From Candidatus Benthortus lauensis (GTDB taxonomy: Archaea; Thermoproteota; Nitrososphaeria_A; Caldarchaeales; Wolframiiraptoraceae), in contig JAHSRM010000087.1 of assembly GCA_021650775.1 (NCBI GenBank), positions 1 to 32,748 on the forward strand: 32,748 nucleotides of DNA. The letters run 5' to 3'. How positions within the stretch are numbered: position 1 is the first letter of the stretch; every line of letters begins with the position of its first letter. The position numbers and the translations under genes are program-made. Under the pieces are notes generated by a model, which did no database searches, was not told the origin of the DNA, and was given only the letters and a program-made list of their open reading frames with translations. This document shows positions 23,209 through 32,488 of the stretch, piece after piece.

Positions 23209-23240
23209 TTTTTATGTATGCATATGGCTTCTCTTCGCAA

Positions 23241-24809
23241 ATGGTCGAGAAGGTTGAGCTTGTTCGGGATGAGGGTCTTGGGCCTGCGAGGCTGAGGCTT
23301 GGAGGAATCTTCGAGGACATATATGAGGTTGTGGATGGCGTGCCGAGGTTCAAGCTGTTCATAGATGGGAGATGGGAGTATAGCTCTGGTAAGGAGTTCC
23401 AGCCCACCCACTCGCCAATAGACGGGAGCGTGATAGCCTATGTCTCAAGGGCCTCCAAGGAGGATGCGGTCAGGGCCGTTGAAACCGCTGAGAAGAACCA
23501 GCCCAAGATAAGGAGCATAGCGGCGATAGAGAGGATAAGCATACTCCTGGACGCCATAGAGATTATGCGTGAGAACTTCGACTACTTCGTGGACGCCCTC
23601 GTCATAGATGGGGGTAAGCCGAGGCATAACGCCGAGAGCGAGGTCAAGGCAACGATGGAGAGGATGAGGATGACCATGCAGGAGGCGAGGAAGATATTCG
23701 GCGAATACATCCCCGGCGACTGGTCCCATGACACCGCTGGGAAGATAGCCCTCGTTATCAGGGAGCCTGTAGGAGTGGTCGCTGCGATAGGCCCCTTCAA
23801 CTACCCGCTATACATACCTGCGGCGAAGATTATCCCGGCCCTCGTCTCGGGGAACTCAGTGGTCGCCAAGCCCTCCAGCTACACGCCGATAACCCTCCTA
23901 CTCTTCGCAAAGGTCCTCCAGGAGGCAGGCCTCCCCGACGGAGTCTTCCAGGTAATCACAGGCCCGGGCAGGATAGGCTCCGAGATAGCCTCCCATCCAT
24001 CGGTCGGAGTCGTATCATTCACAGGGAGCACGGAGGTTGGGAAGGAGCTATACAGGGTCAGCGGTATGAAGCACATGCACCTTGAGCTAGGTGGGAAGGC
24101 GTATGCGATAGTGCTGGAGGACGCAGACCTAAAGCTGGCTGCAACCAAGTGCGTGGACGGGTCTTTCGCCAACAGCGGCCAGAGATGCGACGCCATCAGC
24201 TCCGTCCTCGTAATGGAGTCCGTCGCAGACGAGTTCGTGAATAACGTCTTAGAGAGGGCGAGGCAGTGGAAGTGGGGAGACCCGAGAATCCACGACGTCA
24301 TGATGGGGCCTCTAATCGACTCGGGTGCAGCCGAGAGGGTTCACTCGCTTGTTAAAGATGCCTTGGATAAGGGGGCTGAGCTGCTCATGGGAGGATACAT
24401 GGAGGGAGCATACTATGCCCCAACGGTTCTCGACAGGGTTCCCGAGGACGCCAAGATTCTCTGGGAGGAGATATTCGGCCCCGTGGTGGTGATTAAGCGT
24501 ATAAAGAGCGTGGAGGAGGCAATAGAGATAACCAGAAAGTCGAGATACGGCCTCGACTCCTGCATCTTCACCAACAACTTCTACAACATGTGGAGGATAG
24601 CCAAGGCCATGAAGGTCGGCGAGATAACCATAAACGACATGCCGAGGCACGGTGTAGGGTTCTTCCCCTTCGGAGGAGTCAAGGACTCAGGGATAGGCAG
24701 AGAAGGAATAGGATACTCGATAGACGAGATGACCGTCCTCAAGACAATAGTCTTCAACCTAGAGCCAGCCAAGCTCGGGAAAGGGAAACGCCAGAAGAAA
24801 CAGCGATGA
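23241..24809 (+). CDS. gapN: Non-phosphorylating glyceraldehyde-3-phosphate dehydrogenase (GAPN)
   Basis: 522 residues from ATG 23241. It is an aldehyde dehydrogenase-fold enzyme that oxidises glyceraldehyde-3-phosphate straight to 3-phosphoglycerate, bypassing PGK, typical of modified glycolysis in archaea. The cofactor-binding IGPFNYPLY, the FTGSTEVGKEL turn, catalytic Glu282 in HLELGGKAY and catalytic Cys316 in NSGQRCDAIS are all present; the RCDA context is characteristic of archaeal GAPN rather than general aldehyde dehydrogenases. The ATG at 23214 is rejected because it lies only a few nt after the TATA box. An unknown 186-residue protein overlaps its stop as ATGA. A separate phosphorylating GAPDH-PGK operon lies at 29642. 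Confidence 0.9.
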   Translation: MVEKVELVRDEGLGPARLRLGGIFEDIYEVVDGVPRFKLFIDGRWEYSSGKEFQPTHSPIDGSVIAYVSRASKEDAVRAVETAEKNQPKIRSIAAIERISILLDAIEIMRENFDYFVDALVIDGGKPRHNAESEVKATMERMRMTMQEARKIFGEYIPGDWSHDTAGKIALVIREPVGVVAAIGPFNYPLYIPAAKIIPALVSGNSVVAKPSSYTPITLLLFAKVLQEAGLPDGVFQVITGPGRIGSEIASHPSVGVVSFTGSTEVGKELYRVSGMKHMHLELGGKAYAIVLEDADLKLAATKCVDGSFANSGQRCDAISSVLVMESVADEFVNNVLERARQWKWGDPRIHDVMMGPLIDSGAAERVHSLVKDALDKGAELLMGGYMEGAYYAPTVLDRVPEDAKILWEEIFGPVVVIKRIKSVEEAIEITRKSRYGLDSCIFTNNFYNMWRIAKAMKVGEITINDMPRHGVGFFPFGGVKDSGIGREGIGYSIDEMTVLKTIVFNLEPAKLGKGKRQKKQR

Positions 24810-26973: not shown

Positions 26974-27921
26974 ATGAGGTTCGCAATAAGGGGGATATAC
27001 TCAACGGCCCTCATCAAGGTTCTACTTGACGGAGGCTTCGAGCTGACGAATCCCACGAGGTCTCAGCGTGAGAGGTTCGGGGCGGAGGACAGGGGCGAGG
27101 CCGACATCCTAATCCAGGAGAACCTCAGGAACAGGCATTACGTCGAGTTGAGGGGCTTGAGGGAGGCCGTGGACGAAGCCGTGGAGCATATCACTAAGAG
27201 GATTGGGGACACCCTGGTCCTCAGGAGGGATGACGGAGACCTGGCGAGGGCTAGGATAGGGTTCCCAGCGCATTCGAAGAAGGTCTTGGATGAGGTGAGG
27301 TCCGAGGTGGCCTACACGGTTCCCTGGCACCACTACTGTAGGGCTGGGGGAGAAGCCCTCTCAACCCTCGTAAGCTTTGCGGAGGACTTGGTAGAGCAGG
27401 GGGTAGCGTCCGAGGGAGATGTCTCGAGGCTCTTCGAGGATATGGTCGCCCGCATGTCCCCCAGGAGGGGGGTTGTAGTCAAGATACTCCACGACAAACC
27501 CGACGGAACCACGCTAAAGCTAAGGCCGGGCAAAACCGTGTGGCGAGGAAGCGGTGAGGTGAAGATTCAGAGGAGAATCATGGGAGGCGGGTCCTACGAT
27601 GGACTCAACGTCCCCAAGTCCCCGGGAGACTACGCAATAACCGAGGCAAAGCTGATGGAATGGTATACCAAGACAAGATACTTCGACATCTCCGGAAACC
27701 TCAAGGGGACATACTATAATGTCTGCACGCCCGTGGCCCTCTACCCAGACCATATACACTACTTCGACCTGGAGGTGGATGTGGTTGTTTACCCCGATTC
27801 ACGCTCGGAGATAATTGACGCTGAGAAGCTTGAGAACGCTGTTGAGGAGGGTAGGATTCCCAGGGGGCTTGGGGAGAAGGCGTTGAGGAAGGCTGAGGAG
27901 CTGGCTGAGAAGCAGCCCTAA
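26974..27921 (+). CDS. FAU-1-like RNA-binding protein (RNase E/G-type with DUF402)
   Basis: 315 residues. The opening RFAIRGIYSTALIKVLLDGGF is the hallmark of archaeal FAU-1 (AU-rich RNA binding), followed by an S1/RNase E-like region (ADILIQENLRNRHYVELRG). The C-terminal part (~175-300) is a DUF402 domain: GVVVKILHDKPDGTTLKL, the GDYAITEAKLMEWYTKTRYF block, then YFDLEVDVVVYPDSRSEIID. FAU-1 of Pyrococcus binds U/AU-rich RNA and has been implicated in 5S rRNA processing. This protein is clearly shorter than the ~470-residue Pyrococcus form. The stop TAA overlaps the convergent ECF gene by 4 nt. Confidence 0.88.
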   Translation: MRFAIRGIYSTALIKVLLDGGFELTNPTRSQRERFGAEDRGEADILIQENLRNRHYVELRGLREAVDEAVEHITKRIGDTLVLRRDDGDLARARIGFPAHSKKVLDEVRSEVAYTVPWHHYCRAGGEALSTLVSFAEDLVEQGVASEGDVSRLFEDMVARMSPRRGVVVKILHDKPDGTTLKLRPGKTVWRGSGEVKIQRRIMGGGSYDGLNVPKSPGDYAITEAKLMEWYTKTRYFDISGNLKGTYYNVCTPVALYPDHIHYFDLEVDVVVYPDSRSEIIDAEKLENAVEEGRIPRGLGEKALRKAEELAEKQP

Positions 27922-28553
27922 CCTTTCCTCTTAATCCTCGCATAGAACCATGGCCTCGCAAAGCTCAGGAACAACCCATCCCTTATCATGAAGTTTAGGA
28001 GGAATATGGAGGGGACGAGGCTCAGGAAGACGTGGAGGGCGTTGTATATAGCCGTGAAGACCAGGACCAGTATGAGGGCTGAGAGGCCAGCCTCCAGCTG
28101 CACCCCGAGGCTATGCGAGACCATGTATGCTGCGAACTCGAGGAACTCTGGGAACAGGATTACCAGGACGACGTAGTTTGCGAGGGTCATGACCAGGACC
28201 CTGAGTGTTATGCCGAGGGTGAAGCAGAGGGGGACTCCCAGCCTATAGCTCCTCGAGAGCCTCAGGCCAGCCCAGATACCCGTCAAGGTGGAGACCACGG
28301 CCAGAAACTTCATGGCAGGCCCAATCGGGACGAACTCGCCCACAAGGTTCAGGATACCCCAATATGTCAGGGCCGATATAAACCCGGGGATAGGCCCGAA
28401 CCCCAGGAACGCCAGGAAGACAGGTATCTCCGCCACATCAAACTTTAGGTAGGGGATTACGGGGAAGGGGAAGCTCAGGGGCAGGGCGGCGAGAACCGAT
28501 GCAAGGGCTCCGAAGACTGCTGAGGAGGCGATTGCAAGGCTTAGCCTCGTCAT
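27918..28553 (-). CDS. ECF transporter S component, RibU-like
   Basis: 211 residues from ATG 28553 (an in-frame TTG two codons upstream is possible). About six hydrophobic segments are present. The region PYLKFDVAEIPVFLAFLGFG, followed by PAMKFLAVVSTLTGIWAG, matches the RibU-type substrate-binding subunits of energy-coupling factor vitamin transporters, so riboflavin or a related compound is the likely substrate. The K-F-D...E-I-P block recalls the RibU L.KYD..D.P motif. No EcfA or EcfT is nearby, so it would share a distant energising module. A close paralogue lies at 31847-32488. A TATA-like CATAAAAC on the plus strand at 28581-28588 is ~26-30 nt upstream. Confidence 0.85.
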   Translation of the reverse strand: MTRLSLAIASSAVFGALASVLAALPLSFPFPVIPYLKFDVAEIPVFLAFLGFGPIPGFISALTYWGILNLVGEFVPIGPAMKFLAVVSTLTGIWAGLRLSRSYRLGVPLCFTLGITLRVLVMTLANYVVLVILFPEFLEFAAYMVSHSLGVQLEAGLSALILVLVFTAIYNALHVFLSLVPSIFLLNFMIRDGLFLSFARPWFYARIKRKG

Positions 28554-28625
28554 CTTCAACTACTTGCCGTCAAGTCAATTCATAAAACGTGAGATTCAAC
28601 ACATTATTGCGTATTTTTAAGCGGG

Positions 28626-29462
28626 TTATGGGAGGACCCCGCTGAAGAAGTCTCTCACAACCTTCTCATAGTCCTCTGGCTCACCCACGTCGACCCAATA
28701 CCCGTTATGGACGTATGCGTAGAGCTTGCCCTCGTCTGCCAGGTCCGGGAAGACCTCCTCCTCAAGCGAGGCGGGCTTACCCGCGGGGATATACTCGAAT
28801 ATGCTAGGCTCGAAGACGTAGATTCCTGCGTTCACGAGGCCTGGGGCTGGGTGCCGTGGCTTCTCCCTGAAGGCTATAACCCTTCCGTCATCATCCATTG
28901 AGACGAGGCCGAACCTGCTGGCGTCATCTACGCGGGTCAGGACCATGGTGGCCACGGCATCCTTCTCCCTGTGATACTTCACGAGCCTGGAGATGTTGAG
29001 GTCGTCGAAGATTATGTCTCCGTTTATGGTTAGGAAGGTGCTGTTCAGCTTCTTCTCGGCGAGCTTCACCGCCCCACCCGTCCCCATAGACTTCTCCTCA
29101 ATCGAGTAATCTATCGTTACACCCAGCCCAGAGCCGTCCCCAAAATACCTGATTAGGTGCTCGGCCAGGTAGCCGACCGCCAGGATGAAGCTGTATATTC
29201 CCTGCTTCTTGAGCTTGAGGATTAGGTGCTCCAGGAGGGGTTTGTATCCCACGGGCATCATGGGCTTCGGGATGCTGACGGTGAGGGGACGCATACCTAT
29301 CCCGGGGCCACCGCAGAGAATCAAGGCCCTAAGAGACTCCCTCATCAGCTTCTCCCTAACCGCATCGATGATGAAGGCGCTCCTCTTCCTAGGAGGAACA
29401 TGAGCCTTCAGAGCATCCCACAAATCGGCTGGAAACTCTATGCTCGTCCTATGCTTATGCAT
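28626..29462 (-). CDS. Ribbon-helix-helix / sugar-phosphate nucleotidyltransferase fusion
   Basis: 278 residues from ATG 29462, which a TATA box exactly 26 nt upstream makes leaderless. Residues 1-43 form a ribbon-helix-helix DNA-binding domain: strand HRTSIEFPADLWDALKAHV, then KRSAFIIDAVREKLM. Residues ~45-278 are a nucleotidyltransferase of the GlmU/RmlA/GMPP type: LILCGG...PLTVSIPKPMMPVG, VGYLAEHLIRYFG, INGDIIFD and WVDVGEPEDYEKV. The two metal-binding Asp regions are present. However, the usual GTRLRPLT loop reads GIGMRPLT (residues ~54-61), so the conserved Arg is Gly. The domain may bind nucleotide or sugar without normal catalysis. It faces gapA-pgk across a repeat-rich promoter region. 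Confidence 0.85.
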   Translation of the reverse strand: MHKHRTSIEFPADLWDALKAHVPPRKRSAFIIDAVREKLMRESLRALILCGGPGIGMRPLTVSIPKPMMPVGYKPLLEHLILKLKKQGIYSFILAVGYLAEHLIRYFGDGSGLGVTIDYSIEEKSMGTGGAVKLAEKKLNSTFLTINGDIIFDDLNISRLVKYHREKDAVATMVLTRVDDASRFGLVSMDDDGRVIAFREKPRHPAPGLVNAGIYVFEPSIFEYIPAGKPASLEEEVFPDLADEGKLYAYVHNGYWVDVGEPEDYEKVVRDFFSGVLP

Positions 29463-29555
29463 ACTATTACATCCCCTATATGCACATATAACCATTATGC
29501 ACTATTTTCCAGGCCTGAAAGACCTGCATGTATGAGATGGTATGCAGATTCATAC
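29456..29555. promoter_or_regulatory. Divergent control region with TATGCA cluster and nested inverted repeats
   Basis: TATGCA occurs at 29456-29461, 29479-29484, 29496-29501 and 29541-29546, two as TATGCAC 17 bp apart. A reverse copy TGCAT lies at 29525-29529, forming CTGCAT...ATGCAG (29524-29529 and 29542-29547). GTATGA at 29530-29535 pairs with TCATAC at 29550-29555. One copy covers the fusion gene's start codon and another touches its TATA box (29484-29491), a typical autorepression layout. Confidence 0.55.
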
Positions 29556-29641: not shown

Positions 29642-30667
29642 ATGCTGCGTGTTGGGATTAATGGGATGGGTAGGATTGGGAGGCTCTTCCTTAGGGCTGC
29701 CTTGAGGAGCCCTGAGTATGGTAGGAGATTCCAGGTTGTTGCCTTTAATGACTTGTTCGATACCAGGTCCGTCGCCTTTCTCCTGAAGTATGACTCGGTT
29801 CATGGTAGGCTGTCTAATGAGGTTGGCTTCTCGGAGAGTCATGTAAGCGTGGATGGATGGGAGATTAGGGCGTTCAGGGAGCCTGACCCCTCCAAGATTC
29901 CCTGGGGGGAGGAGGACGTAGACCTGGTGGTCGAGGCCACGGGGAGATTCACTGCGAGGTCTGATGCAGCGAAGCATCTTAGGGACACCGTGAAGAAGGT
30001 CTTAATCTCCGCGCCCTCCAAGGACGCAGACGTAACCATAGTCCCGGGAGTGAATGACGGCGCCCTCGACCTCGGGAGACATGACGTTATCTCGGCTGCA
30101 TCATGCACGACCAACTGCCTGGCACCCATGGTGAAGGTCCTCCTAGACAACTTCGGCCTAAGGAAGGGATACATGACGACGGTCCACGCATTCACGAATG
30201 ACCAGAGGCTGCTCGACCTATTCCACAAGGACCTGAGGAGGGCCAGGGCCGCAACCCTCTCCATAATCCCGACCACCACAGGTGCGGCTAAGGCTCTCCA
30301 TCTTGTTATCCCTGAGGTTAAGGGTAAGATGCATGGTCTCGCCCTCAGGGTTCCTGTTGCCGATGGCTCGATAACGGATTTGGTAGCCTTGCTTGGGAGG
30401 GAGGTGAGCGTCGAGGAGGTTAGGGAGGCGTATAGGAGGGCTGCGGAAAATGAGATGAAGGATATCTTGGAATACACGGAGGACCCGATAGTTTCAGCCG
30501 ACATAATAGGGAACCCCCACTCATGCATCATAGATGGAGCGAGCATAACCATCCTCGAGGGGAGGAACGACCTGGTCAAGATTCTCGGATGGTATGACAA
30601 CGAGTGGGGATACTCCAACAGGCTGGTGGACATAGTCTCCAGAATCGCCCGAGAGGGGATTCCATGA
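29642..30667 (+). CDS. gapA: Phosphorylating glyceraldehyde-3-phosphate dehydrogenase, bacterial (class I) type
   Basis: 341 residues. All landmarks are those of bacterial and eukaryotic GAPDH, not of the usual archaeal class II enzyme: VGINGMGRIGRLFLRA at the N-terminus, the FNDLFDTRSVAFLLKYDSVH segment, catalytic Cys155 in SAASCTTNCLAP, His182 in TTVHAFTNDQ, TTTGAAKAL, and WYDNEWGYSNRLVD at the C-terminus. Asp37 after Asn36 at the end of the second strand favours NAD over NADP. The stop overlaps the pgk start as ATGA. With GAPN in the same genome, this pair probably serves gluconeogenesis or a separately controlled flux. It is probably a transfer from bacteria in an old lineage; its codon use looks like that of its neighbours. 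Confidence 0.95.
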   Translation: MLRVGINGMGRIGRLFLRAALRSPEYGRRFQVVAFNDLFDTRSVAFLLKYDSVHGRLSNEVGFSESHVSVDGWEIRAFREPDPSKIPWGEEDVDLVVEATGRFTARSDAAKHLRDTVKKVLISAPSKDADVTIVPGVNDGALDLGRHDVISAASCTTNCLAPMVKVLLDNFGLRKGYMTTVHAFTNDQRLLDLFHKDLRRARAATLSIIPTTTGAAKALHLVIPEVKGKMHGLALRVPVADGSITDLVALLGREVSVEEVREAYRRAAENEMKDILEYTEDPIVSADIIGNPHSCIIDGASITILEGRNDLVKILGWYDNEWGYSNRLVDIVSRIAREGIP

Positions 30668-31893
30668 AGTTCCCAACCCTCGACGACATAGACCCCCAAG
30701 GAAAGACAGTCCTCATACGGGTTGACCTTAACTCCCCAATAGACCCCGAGACCCGTAGGGTGAGGGATAATGAAAGGTTTAGGGCCCATGCCCAGACCGT
30801 TGAGGAGGTTGCGGCCAAGGGTGGGAAAGCGGTTGTGCTGGCTCATCAGGGCAGGAGGGGTGAGCCGGACTTCCTACCCCTCGAGCAGCACGCCGAGATT
30901 CTCTCAAAGTATCTTAACAGGGATGTCAGGTATGTTCCAGATGTAATTGGTGATGCTGCCAGGGAGGCTATAATGGGTATGGGGGAGGGTGAGGTGATTC
31001 TCCTTGACAATGTTAGGTTTCTTGAGGAGGAGACCCGTGAGGCGGACCCCGAGACCCATGCGAGGAGCAGGCTCGTCTCATCCCTCGCACCCCTATCCGA
31101 CGTCTTCGTCCTCGACGCATTCTCGGTCTCCCACCGCAGCCACGCATCCATAGTAGGCTTCCCCCAGGTTCTCCCAACGGTCGCTGGAAGGGTCATGGAG
31201 AGGGAGCTCAAGGCACTCTCCGAGATACTTGAGAAGGATAGGGAGATAACGCTCTTCACGGGCGGCAACAAGCCCAAGGACTGCATAGAGGTTATAGAGG
31301 CTCTATGGAGGTCTGGGAGACTTAGGAGGCTTCTAACCGCAGGGATACTTGGCCAGCTCTTCCTACTATCACGTGGCCACGACCTAGGGGAGCCGAGCCT
31401 CAGGTATCTCAGGGAGAAGGGCTTCATGGAGCTTGCCGGGAGGGTCAAGGCCCTCGGGGAGGCTCTAGGAGACCGGGTTCTAACACCAATAGATGTTGCC
31501 TGCAGGGTTGATGGAGGGAGGGTGGAGGTGGATGTCGGGGACCTGCCTGCACCAGGCCTAATACTCGATATAGGTAGGAGGACCGCCGAACTCTATGGGG
31601 GAATCATCAGGGAGTTGAGGGAGGATGAGGCAGTGGTGGTTAAGGGGCCTGCGGGCGCCTATGAGCTCCCAGAGTTTAGGCTGGGTTCGAGGATTATCTA
31701 TGAGGCTCTGAGGAGGAGTAGGGCGTTCACCCTCATCGGGGGAGGAGACTCATCAACAGCGTTAAAGATGCTTGGGATGAGGTTCGAGGACTTCTCCTAC
31801 GTGAGCCTCGGCGGAGGAGCCTTGATACGGTTTCTGGCGGGCAAGCCTATGCCCGGTGTCGCTGTTCTTCTAAGGCAGGTTGCCTCCCCGTAG
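30664..31893 (+). CDS. pgk: Phosphoglycerate kinase
   Basis: 409 residues from ATG 30664, whose ATGA overlaps the gapA stop. The N-domain has the substrate-binding VLIRVDLNSPID and AVVLAHQGRRGEPD segments and ILLDNVRFLEEETR. The hinge region follows FVLDAFSVSHRSHASIVGFP. The C-domain has the nucleotide-binding TLFTGGNKPKD and FTLIGGGDSSTALKMLG. The RVDLN and AHQGR variants, and the SVSHR segment in place of the bacterial ..AHR block, are typical of archaeal PGK, so unlike gapA it looks native. It interconverts 1,3-bisphosphoglycerate and 3-phosphoglycerate with ATP/ADP. The last 47 nt overlap the convergent ECF gene. Confidence 0.95.
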   Translation: MKFPTLDDIDPQGKTVLIRVDLNSPIDPETRRVRDNERFRAHAQTVEEVAAKGGKAVVLAHQGRRGEPDFLPLEQHAEILSKYLNRDVRYVPDVIGDAAREAIMGMGEGEVILLDNVRFLEEETREADPETHARSRLVSSLAPLSDVFVLDAFSVSHRSHASIVGFPQVLPTVAGRVMERELKALSEILEKDREITLFTGGNKPKDCIEVIEALWRSGRLRRLLTAGILGQLFLLSRGHDLGEPSLRYLREKGFMELAGRVKALGEALGDRVLTPIDVACRVDGGRVEVDVGDLPAPGLILDIGRRTAELYGGIIRELREDEAVVVKGPAGAYELPEFRLGSRIIYEALRRSRAFTLIGGGDSSTALKMLGMRFEDFSYVSLGGGALIRFLAGKPMPGVAVLLRQVASP

Positions 31894-32488
31894 CCTTGAC
31901 GTAGGCTTTGTAGATTGCCGCAGCCGGGATTACCGAGAGGGGTGTGTGGAGGAGGTTGAAGAGCGAGGTAAGGGCAACCATGATTAGCGTGAGGAGGAGC
32001 GCCGACTCGACCTGTAGCCCGAGGACGTTTCCAAGGACCTTGCCTGCGAAGGAGAGGTATCTCTCGGGGAAGATTATGTAGTAGAGTAGGAATGTGGCGA
32101 GGGCCATGGCCGAGACCCTGACCAAGGCGCCCAGGACAGTCATCAGGGCCACGTGCCTACCCCTGAGAGGCTCACCCCTCCTCCAGAACCTCCCACCAAC
32201 ATAGAGCCCCACAAGCATCGAGGTTACGGCGAGGAGCTTCATAAGCGGGCCGACGCCAGGCTGGAAAGGAACCCCGAGGTTGAGGGCGAACCACTGGGCA
32301 AAAGCCACGACCATACCGGCCTTGAAGCCCATGAGGAGGAAGGCCAGCACCACAGGAATCTCGGAGAGGTTGAAGGTGAGGAACGGCAGCAGAGGATAAT
32401 TAATCTTGACTCTCAGGAGGTCGAGGACCACCGCCAAGGCCGCCAGGAGCGCCGCCGTGGCCACCCAAACACTAGCTCTATAACTCAT
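31847..32488 (-). CDS. ECF transporter S component, RibU-like paralogue
   Basis: 213 residues with about six hydrophobic segments, and clearly related to the protein at 27918-28553. Shared blocks are PFLTFNLSEIPVVLAFLLMG, the LNL...GP.MK.LAV.S.L.G pattern, LVRVSAMALATF and the C-terminal FNLLHTPLSVIPA. The first copy has PYLKFDVAEIP where this one has PFLTFNLSEIP, so the charged Lys-Phe-Asp of the RibU motif is changed to Thr-Phe-Asn and substrate could differ. A GGAGG element lies about 8 nt before the ATG at 32488. A CTTAAAATAAAGTGTG stretch ~35-50 nt upstream may be the TATA region. No EcfA/EcfT gene is present nearby. Confidence 0.83.
   Translation of the reverse strand: MSYRASVWVATAALLAALAVVLDLLRVKINYPLLPFLTFNLSEIPVVLAFLLMGFKAGMVVAFAQWFALNLGVPFQPGVGPLMKLLAVTSMLVGLYVGGRFWRRGEPLRGRHVALMTVLGALVRVSAMALATFLLYYIIFPERYLSFAGKVLGNVLGLQVESALLLTLIMVALTSLFNLLHTPLSVIPAAAIYKAYVKATGRQPALEEQRHRA

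Follow-up and report, generated by a model that had tools for sequence, protein, structure and literature searches.

What does a cell gain by joining a DNA-binding domain to a sugar nucleotidyltransferase that lacks the usual Arg of its active-site loop? The question is raised by a gene of Candidatus Benthortus lauensis (Wolframiiraptoraceae, a group of heat-loving archaea) that lies within a 32,748-nucleotide stretch of DNA, which is referred to here as the window. An earlier note on this DNA read the gene product as a ribbon-helix-helix (RHH) domain fused to a poorly active enzyme, and suggested that it serves as a one-component metabolite sensor.

Architecture of the fusion protein

The open reading frame at 28626-29462 is genuine and lies on the minus strand; stops interrupt the opposite strand. 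Alignment shows the start codon at 29462 to be common to 16 orthologues, and these do not possess the stretch by which the frame could be extended upstream to 29495. The gene and the parts of its product are as follows.

28626..29462, minus strand: RHH-nucleotidyltransferase fusion gene (278 aa, ATG at 29462; 16 family members)
29334..29462, minus strand: RHH domain (residues 1-43: strand KHRTSIEF, helices 12-21 and 24-42)
28653..29327, minus strand: GMPP/RmlA-type nucleotidyltransferase domain (residues 46-270; Pfam PF00483 NTP_transferase, E 1.1e-47)
29277..29312, minus strand: degenerate loop, residues 51-62 (GGPGIGMRPLTV), with Gly56 in place of VTC1 Arg13

The C-terminal domain is identified directly by its PF00483 homology (Pfam E 1.1e-47). 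The top NCBIfam match of the protein is a mannose-1-phosphate guanylyltransferase model (E 5e-68, below the model cut-off), and GMPPB, VTC1 and their relatives are among its best PDB matches by both sequence and fold (E 3e-21 for the fold match of the domain to VTC1). The protein ends about 8 residues past this domain and has no left-handed β-helix domain.

The window N-terminus yields less by itself. A direct Pfam search returns RHH_4 alone (E 0.093, below cut-off), a PDB search with the N-terminus alone is too weak, and a profile built from window-type N-termini gives only noise. The AlphaFold model of the 43 N-terminal residues has a pLDDT of 89, with helices at 12-21 and 24-42; its sole Foldseek matches in the PDB above TM 0.5 are to ParD2, an RHH antitoxin (TM 0.60-0.62, E > 1). 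Among homologues of the same architecture, 13 of 18 N-termini match RHH_1 (best E 4e-7), and the joint profile of homologue N-termini has E. coli NikR as its best PDB profile match (E 2e-6). Because these homologues match RHH_1 and NikR, the RHH assignment of the window protein is secured, and the confident model and homologue matches together describe the strand-helix-helix fold of about 45 residues that defines an RHH domain. The proposed fusion is therefore borne out, by direct match for the enzyme part and through same-architecture homologues for the RHH part. The model of the full-length monomer has low confidence at residues 1-9 and 53-64; for residues 1-9 this fits a strand that would pair only within a dimer.

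The earlier note named free variation of the first 43 residues as an outcome that would count against its reading. The N-terminus proves to be as conserved as the enzyme part, with a mean pairwise identity of 73% vs 71% across the 16 family members. The dN/dS values are 0.02-0.10 in both domains, which speaks against decay and indicates that both are under purifying selection.

Active-site losses and distribution of the fusion

The window loop reads GGPGIGMRPLT, with Gly56 at the position of Arg13 in human GMPPB and Arabidopsis VTC1. In VTC1, Arg13 contacts citrate at the pyrophosphate site, and Lys196 is named critical together with Glu195, Asp111 and Asp219 (PMC9168903). Alignment on VTC1 places Gly at the Arg13 position and Glu at the Lys196 position in 16/16 family members, and the Thr12 position varies. 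The loop Arg of active enzymes (G-x-G-T-R-L-R-P) is thus replaced throughout the family, whereas it is present in 29/29 unfused relatives. Unfused relatives vary at the Lys196 position too, so that this loss weighs less than that of Arg13.

Much of the remaining site is retained. Asp111, Asp219, Lys23, Gly146, Asn173 and an acidic residue 80 (VTC1 numbering) are invariant in 16/16; Gly146 and Asn173 of VTC1 are mannose contacts (PMC9168903), and residue 80, a guanine contact, is Asp in the same paper (PMC9168903) and Glu in the VTC1 sequence used here. The EKP motif is intact in family members, and the metal-binding Asp pair of the window protein, D149 and D258, is kept and is likewise invariant in 16/16. 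Both parts of the earlier description hold, namely a missing loop Arg and persisting later Asp motifs, and the loop alignment that it called for finds Arg absent not only from the 16 family members but from 41/66 fused archaeal proteins of several lineages, vs 0/29 unfused relatives. Judged by these residues, the nucleotidyltransferase domain of the family members has probably lost catalysis.

The search covered 61 genomes, 22 of which belong to the window family, Wolframiiraptoraceae. The full-length fusion occurs in 16 of the 22, the other 15 members being 62-76% identical to the window protein; in six genomes of genus g3, among these 22, it was not found. Across 398 genomes of the phylum, a profile of the N-terminus and loop detects 19 fusions. 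All score E 1e-30 or better and are clearly set apart from the next matches, which come at E 1e-18. The fusion is also present in Geothermarchaeota, in 28/156 genomes of the phylum of the Aenigmatarchaeota record (E 1e-16) and in 28/196 genomes of Asgard archaea (E 1e-18). The window family forms one clade, and its sisters, L091 (Geothermarchaeota) and L094 (Aenigmatarchaeota), retain Arg, as do 13/26 further Aenigmatarchaeota homologues. The fusion is wider than the Arg loss and, since both sisters keep Arg, is likely also to be older, and some Arg-keeping homologues, such as these two, may be active enzymes. Parsimony on the tree gives nine state changes of the loop Arg; the fusion needs one change, with a support of only 67.

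Two Asgard groups have features of their own. In the second Asgard fused group (L192-L201) Ser or Gly takes the place of the loop Arg in 10/10 proteins, and a prenyl diphosphate synthase gene adjoins the fused gene of L192. The Heimdallarchaeota fused proteins (L095-L107, L202-L204) mostly keep the loop Arg, and the aligned ones are without the EKP Lys; their genes lie mostly beside aminotransferase-like and ribosomal protein L30e-like genes (names judged by eye).

The retained residues might instead belong to a bifunctional trigger enzyme (cf. NadR, PutA, RbkR), a sugar nucleotidyltransferase that still works, binds DNA as well and has other groups in place of Arg. The metal-binding Asp residues, Lys23 and EKP motif are all intact, as this explanation would have it, and Arg is kept in L091, L094 and half of the 26 further Aenigmatarchaeota homologues. 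In the window family, however, Arg is lost from 16/16 members and fixed as Gly, with the Lys196 position fixed as Glu. Moreover, the source genome encodes three other nucleotidyltransferases with intact loops, and elsewhere an Arg-less fused protein adjoins a separate intact nucleotidyltransferase (L168) or lies with a separate nucleotidyltransferase in a heptose-gene cluster (L187, L188). We consider a trigger enzyme unlikely.

Gene neighbourhood and operator-like repeats

The features around the fusion gene are the following.

27918..28559, minus strand: RibU-like ECF transporter S component, downstream (phmmer to RibU 3p5n, E 3e-9; syntenic position conserved)
29483..29501, minus strand: operator-like inverted repeat TGCAT-aatggttat-ATGTG (1 mismatch to TRCAT-N9-ATGYA)
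29642..30667, plus strand: type I GAPDH, divergent neighbour (Pfam; TIGR01534 above cut-off; synteny)
30658..31893, plus strand: phosphoglycerate kinase (PGK), after GAPDH (Pfam PGK, E 2.5e-101; synteny)

Wolframiiraptoraceae loci have the fusion gene followed by the RibU-like ECF gene and, in most, GAPDH divergent with PGK near. The ECF gene is a probable member of the same operon, and the type I GAPDH gene is a likely, predicted regulatory target of the fusion protein. In Geothermarchaeota L091, the fused gene lies between a type II GAPDH and a type I GAPDH-PGK pair; in Aenigmatarchaeota L094, PGK-GAPDH II-TIM run divergently from it; and in G081 and G067, it stands third in a cluster with GAPDH I and PGK, and GAPDH II is divergent. 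Four lineages have the fused gene divergent from, or clustered with, GAPDH/PGK. Most fused homologues outside the window family are without this linkage, and as a rule for the whole fused family it was rejected, since the further loci from Aenigmatarchaeota and Asgard archaea do not show it. Eight Aenigmatarchaeota genomes instead have a heptose-kinase-like (HddA) gene divergent from the fused gene, in most with GmhA-/GmhB-type genes nearby, and others have UDP-glucose dehydrogenase (UGDH) near it or an epimerase-like gene 2-6 bp away; for most of these neighbour names, the matches fall short of the curated NCBIfam cut-offs. What the neighbours have in common is the metabolism of sugar nucleotides and sugar phosphates; they suggest control of GAPDH-PGK in the window family and sugar-nucleotide control elsewhere.

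Two further genes of the window are recorded here. A second ECF S-component-like gene (31847-32488, minus strand), a paralogue of 27918-28559, lies beside PGK, and one is found near PGK in three genus g5 genomes as well. A gene for a GAPN-like protein (non-phosphorylating glyceraldehyde-3-phosphate dehydrogenase) is located at 23214-24809 on the plus strand (NF040869, E 1e-163, below cut-off).

Counted from the ATG, the inverted repeat begins 39 bp upstream, and it shares bases with a TATA-like sequence. Of the 16 family members, 14 have TRCAT-N9-ATGYA or a near form beginning 35-44 bp ahead of the start codon; at ≤1 mismatch within 60 bp, it precedes 13/16 orthologues vs 1/221 other genes in the same loci. 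Conservation is 0.87 and 0.97 in the repeat arms, 0.72 in the TATA-containing spacer and 0.44 in the flanks, which have diverged although the family loci share ancestry. When the 22 whole family genomes were searched with a stricter form, 11 gave a match, 8 of them in the intergenic region of the fusion gene and GAPDH. Four further matches, considered as extra targets, were rejected, as all lie inside ORFs. The gap between GAPDH II and GAPDH I of L138 and L139 was searched for a shared repeat, and none was found.

The two orthologues without the repeat before the fused gene are G001 and G017. In G001 (Candidatus Wolframiiraptor allenii), the repeat is still beside GAPDH; about 9 kb (~3200-12200 of L046) interrupt the fused gene at its 5' end and separate it from GAPDH. 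The old promoter and first codons stay beside GAPDH, and the new 5' end of the displaced gene encodes the same first residues in other codons. The ORFs of this segment show no more than weak matches. It resembles either an integrative element that restores the gene it enters or an error of assembly.

A different element is found in Aenigmatarchaeota. The tandem TTCATAC-N4-TCATAC occurs exactly once per genome in eight of them (L168, L170, L172, L175, L177, L180, L187 and L188), within ~60 bp before the fused gene; these are the eight with the divergent heptose-kinase-like gene. The operator of NikR is GTATGA-N16-TCATAC and its recognition strand is R-V-T-I-T; the N-terminal strand of several Aenigmatarchaeota fused proteins is also R-V-T-I-T. 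This combination of NikR-like half-site and strand is the strongest sign of RHH binding at the proteins' own promoters, which is predicted from it. Two groups of different phyla accordingly carry conserved, nearly genome-unique operator-like repeats just upstream of the fused gene.

These repeats bear on a further explanation, in which the fusion protein is a non-catalytic allosteric partner of an active nucleotidyltransferase and the N-terminal helices oligomerise rather than bind DNA. GMPPA offers a precedent as a non-catalytic paralogue that binds GDP-mannose (PMC11228364), and an intact nucleotidyltransferase is next door at some loci. The window, however, has no nucleotidyltransferase gene adjacent to the fusion gene, the N-terminus is an RHH domain downstream of a nearly genome-unique repeat, and the left-handed β-helix domain that carries the GMPPA-GMPPB contacts (PMC9168903) is absent. 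Such a partner role is improbable. An ordinary nucleotidyltransferase with an incidental N-terminal extension and a repeat that is core promoter only would suit the TATA-like overlap and the weak direct RHH score, but it is highly improbable given an extension as conserved as the enzyme part, the same architecture in other archaeal phyla, and a repeat that the 13/16 vs 1/221 control and the footprint, with arms more conserved than the TATA-containing spacer, rule out as a mere core promoter.

A predicted regulator and its relation to known systems

Architecture, conservation, motif losses, the conserved operator-like site and the neighbourhood are computational observations. On this basis, the fusion protein is likely to act as a one-component regulator: it would sense a sugar phosphate or sugar nucleotide and is predicted to control its own gene and the neighbouring ones. 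The metabolite-sensor reading of the earlier note thus gains support from the conserved N-terminus, the Arg and Lys196 losses, and operator-like repeats in two phyla.

In the proposed mechanism, the RHH domain would dimerise and bind TRCAT-N9-ATGYA between the fusion gene and GAPDH-PGK, where the repeat overlaps the TATA region of the fusion gene's promoter. The nucleotidyltransferase domain, with Gly for Arg13 and Glu for Lys196, has presumably lost catalysis, yet it keeps the metal, base and sugar residues and would bind a ligand, most likely a nucleotide sugar (GDP-mannose-like) or a sugar phosphate. Binding would shift the DNA affinity and so adjust the protein's own operon, including the ECF transporter gene; GAPDH-PGK is probably also under its control. 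Most likely, the RHH dimer represses its own operon, and probably GAPDH-PGK, until ligand is bound, or the reverse; the direction of regulation is our inference. GAPOR is predicted in W. gerlachensis (PMC9246946), and where GAPN and GAPOR exist, it is plausible that GAPDH-PGK works in the gluconeogenic direction. If so, regulation by the fusion protein would be end-product control.

With somewhat less assurance, we propose a widespread and so far unrecognised archaeal family of one-component regulators, in which the sensor is a repurposed, repeatedly inactivated nucleotidyltransferase and each member has a single operator at its own locus and is tuned to the adjoining sugar-nucleotide or gluconeogenic pathway. 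Hardly any regulators of sugar metabolism are known from uncultivated archaea, and the fusion gives a testable one, with a predicted operator, a predicted target in GAPDH-PGK and a predicted ligand class. The repeated loss of the catalytic Arg in DNA-binding fusions provides a natural series that makes the enzyme-to-sensor transition directly testable.

NikR shares the plan of an N-terminal RHH domain and a C-terminal ligand-binding domain, and the Aenigmatarchaeota homologues add the R-V-T-I-T strand and TCATAC half-site. Unlike in NikR, the sensor is a sugar nucleotidyltransferase and the neighbours are sugar metabolism genes; the C-terminal domain is NTP_transferase by Pfam, and the nickel-binding domain of NikR is not present. 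CggR of Bacillus is a one-component sugar-phosphate regulator of the gapA operon, and belongs to the SorC family. It is bacterial, with unrelated DNA-binding and sensor folds, and the fusion protein has no Pfam match at E up to 1 to the CggR/SorC domains (helix-turn-helix and phosphosugar isomerase-like). NadR, PutA and BirA join an enzyme domain to a DNA-binding domain, which in PutA is RHH. The archaeal RbkR likewise combines enzyme and DNA-binding domain, but all four have different enzyme folds and keep catalysis. TrmB consists of a winged-helix and a TrmB sugar-binding domain, an architecture unrelated to that of the fusion protein. The SorC family is described in PMC11229326 and RbkR is noted in PMC8305020; in archaea, TrmB/TrmBL1 regulate sugar uptake and the switch between glycolysis and gluconeogenesis (PMC4706686, PMC10817205).

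The sensor resembles GMPPA in kind, an inactive nucleotidyltransferase-fold protein that regulates by binding a nucleotide sugar (PMC11228364, PMC9168903). GMPPA acts on an enzyme by contact and has a β-helix domain, whereas the fusion protein has an RHH domain and no β-helix. In a search of literature mostly outside the subscription journals, no paper came up on a protein that combines RHH with a sugar nucleotidyltransferase. Enzyme-derived one-component regulators (RbkR, NadR, PutA, BirA) and non-catalytic nucleotidyltransferase regulators (GMPPA) are known already; the predicted union of the two in this fusion protein probably makes it a type of sugar-sensing gene switch that has not been described before.
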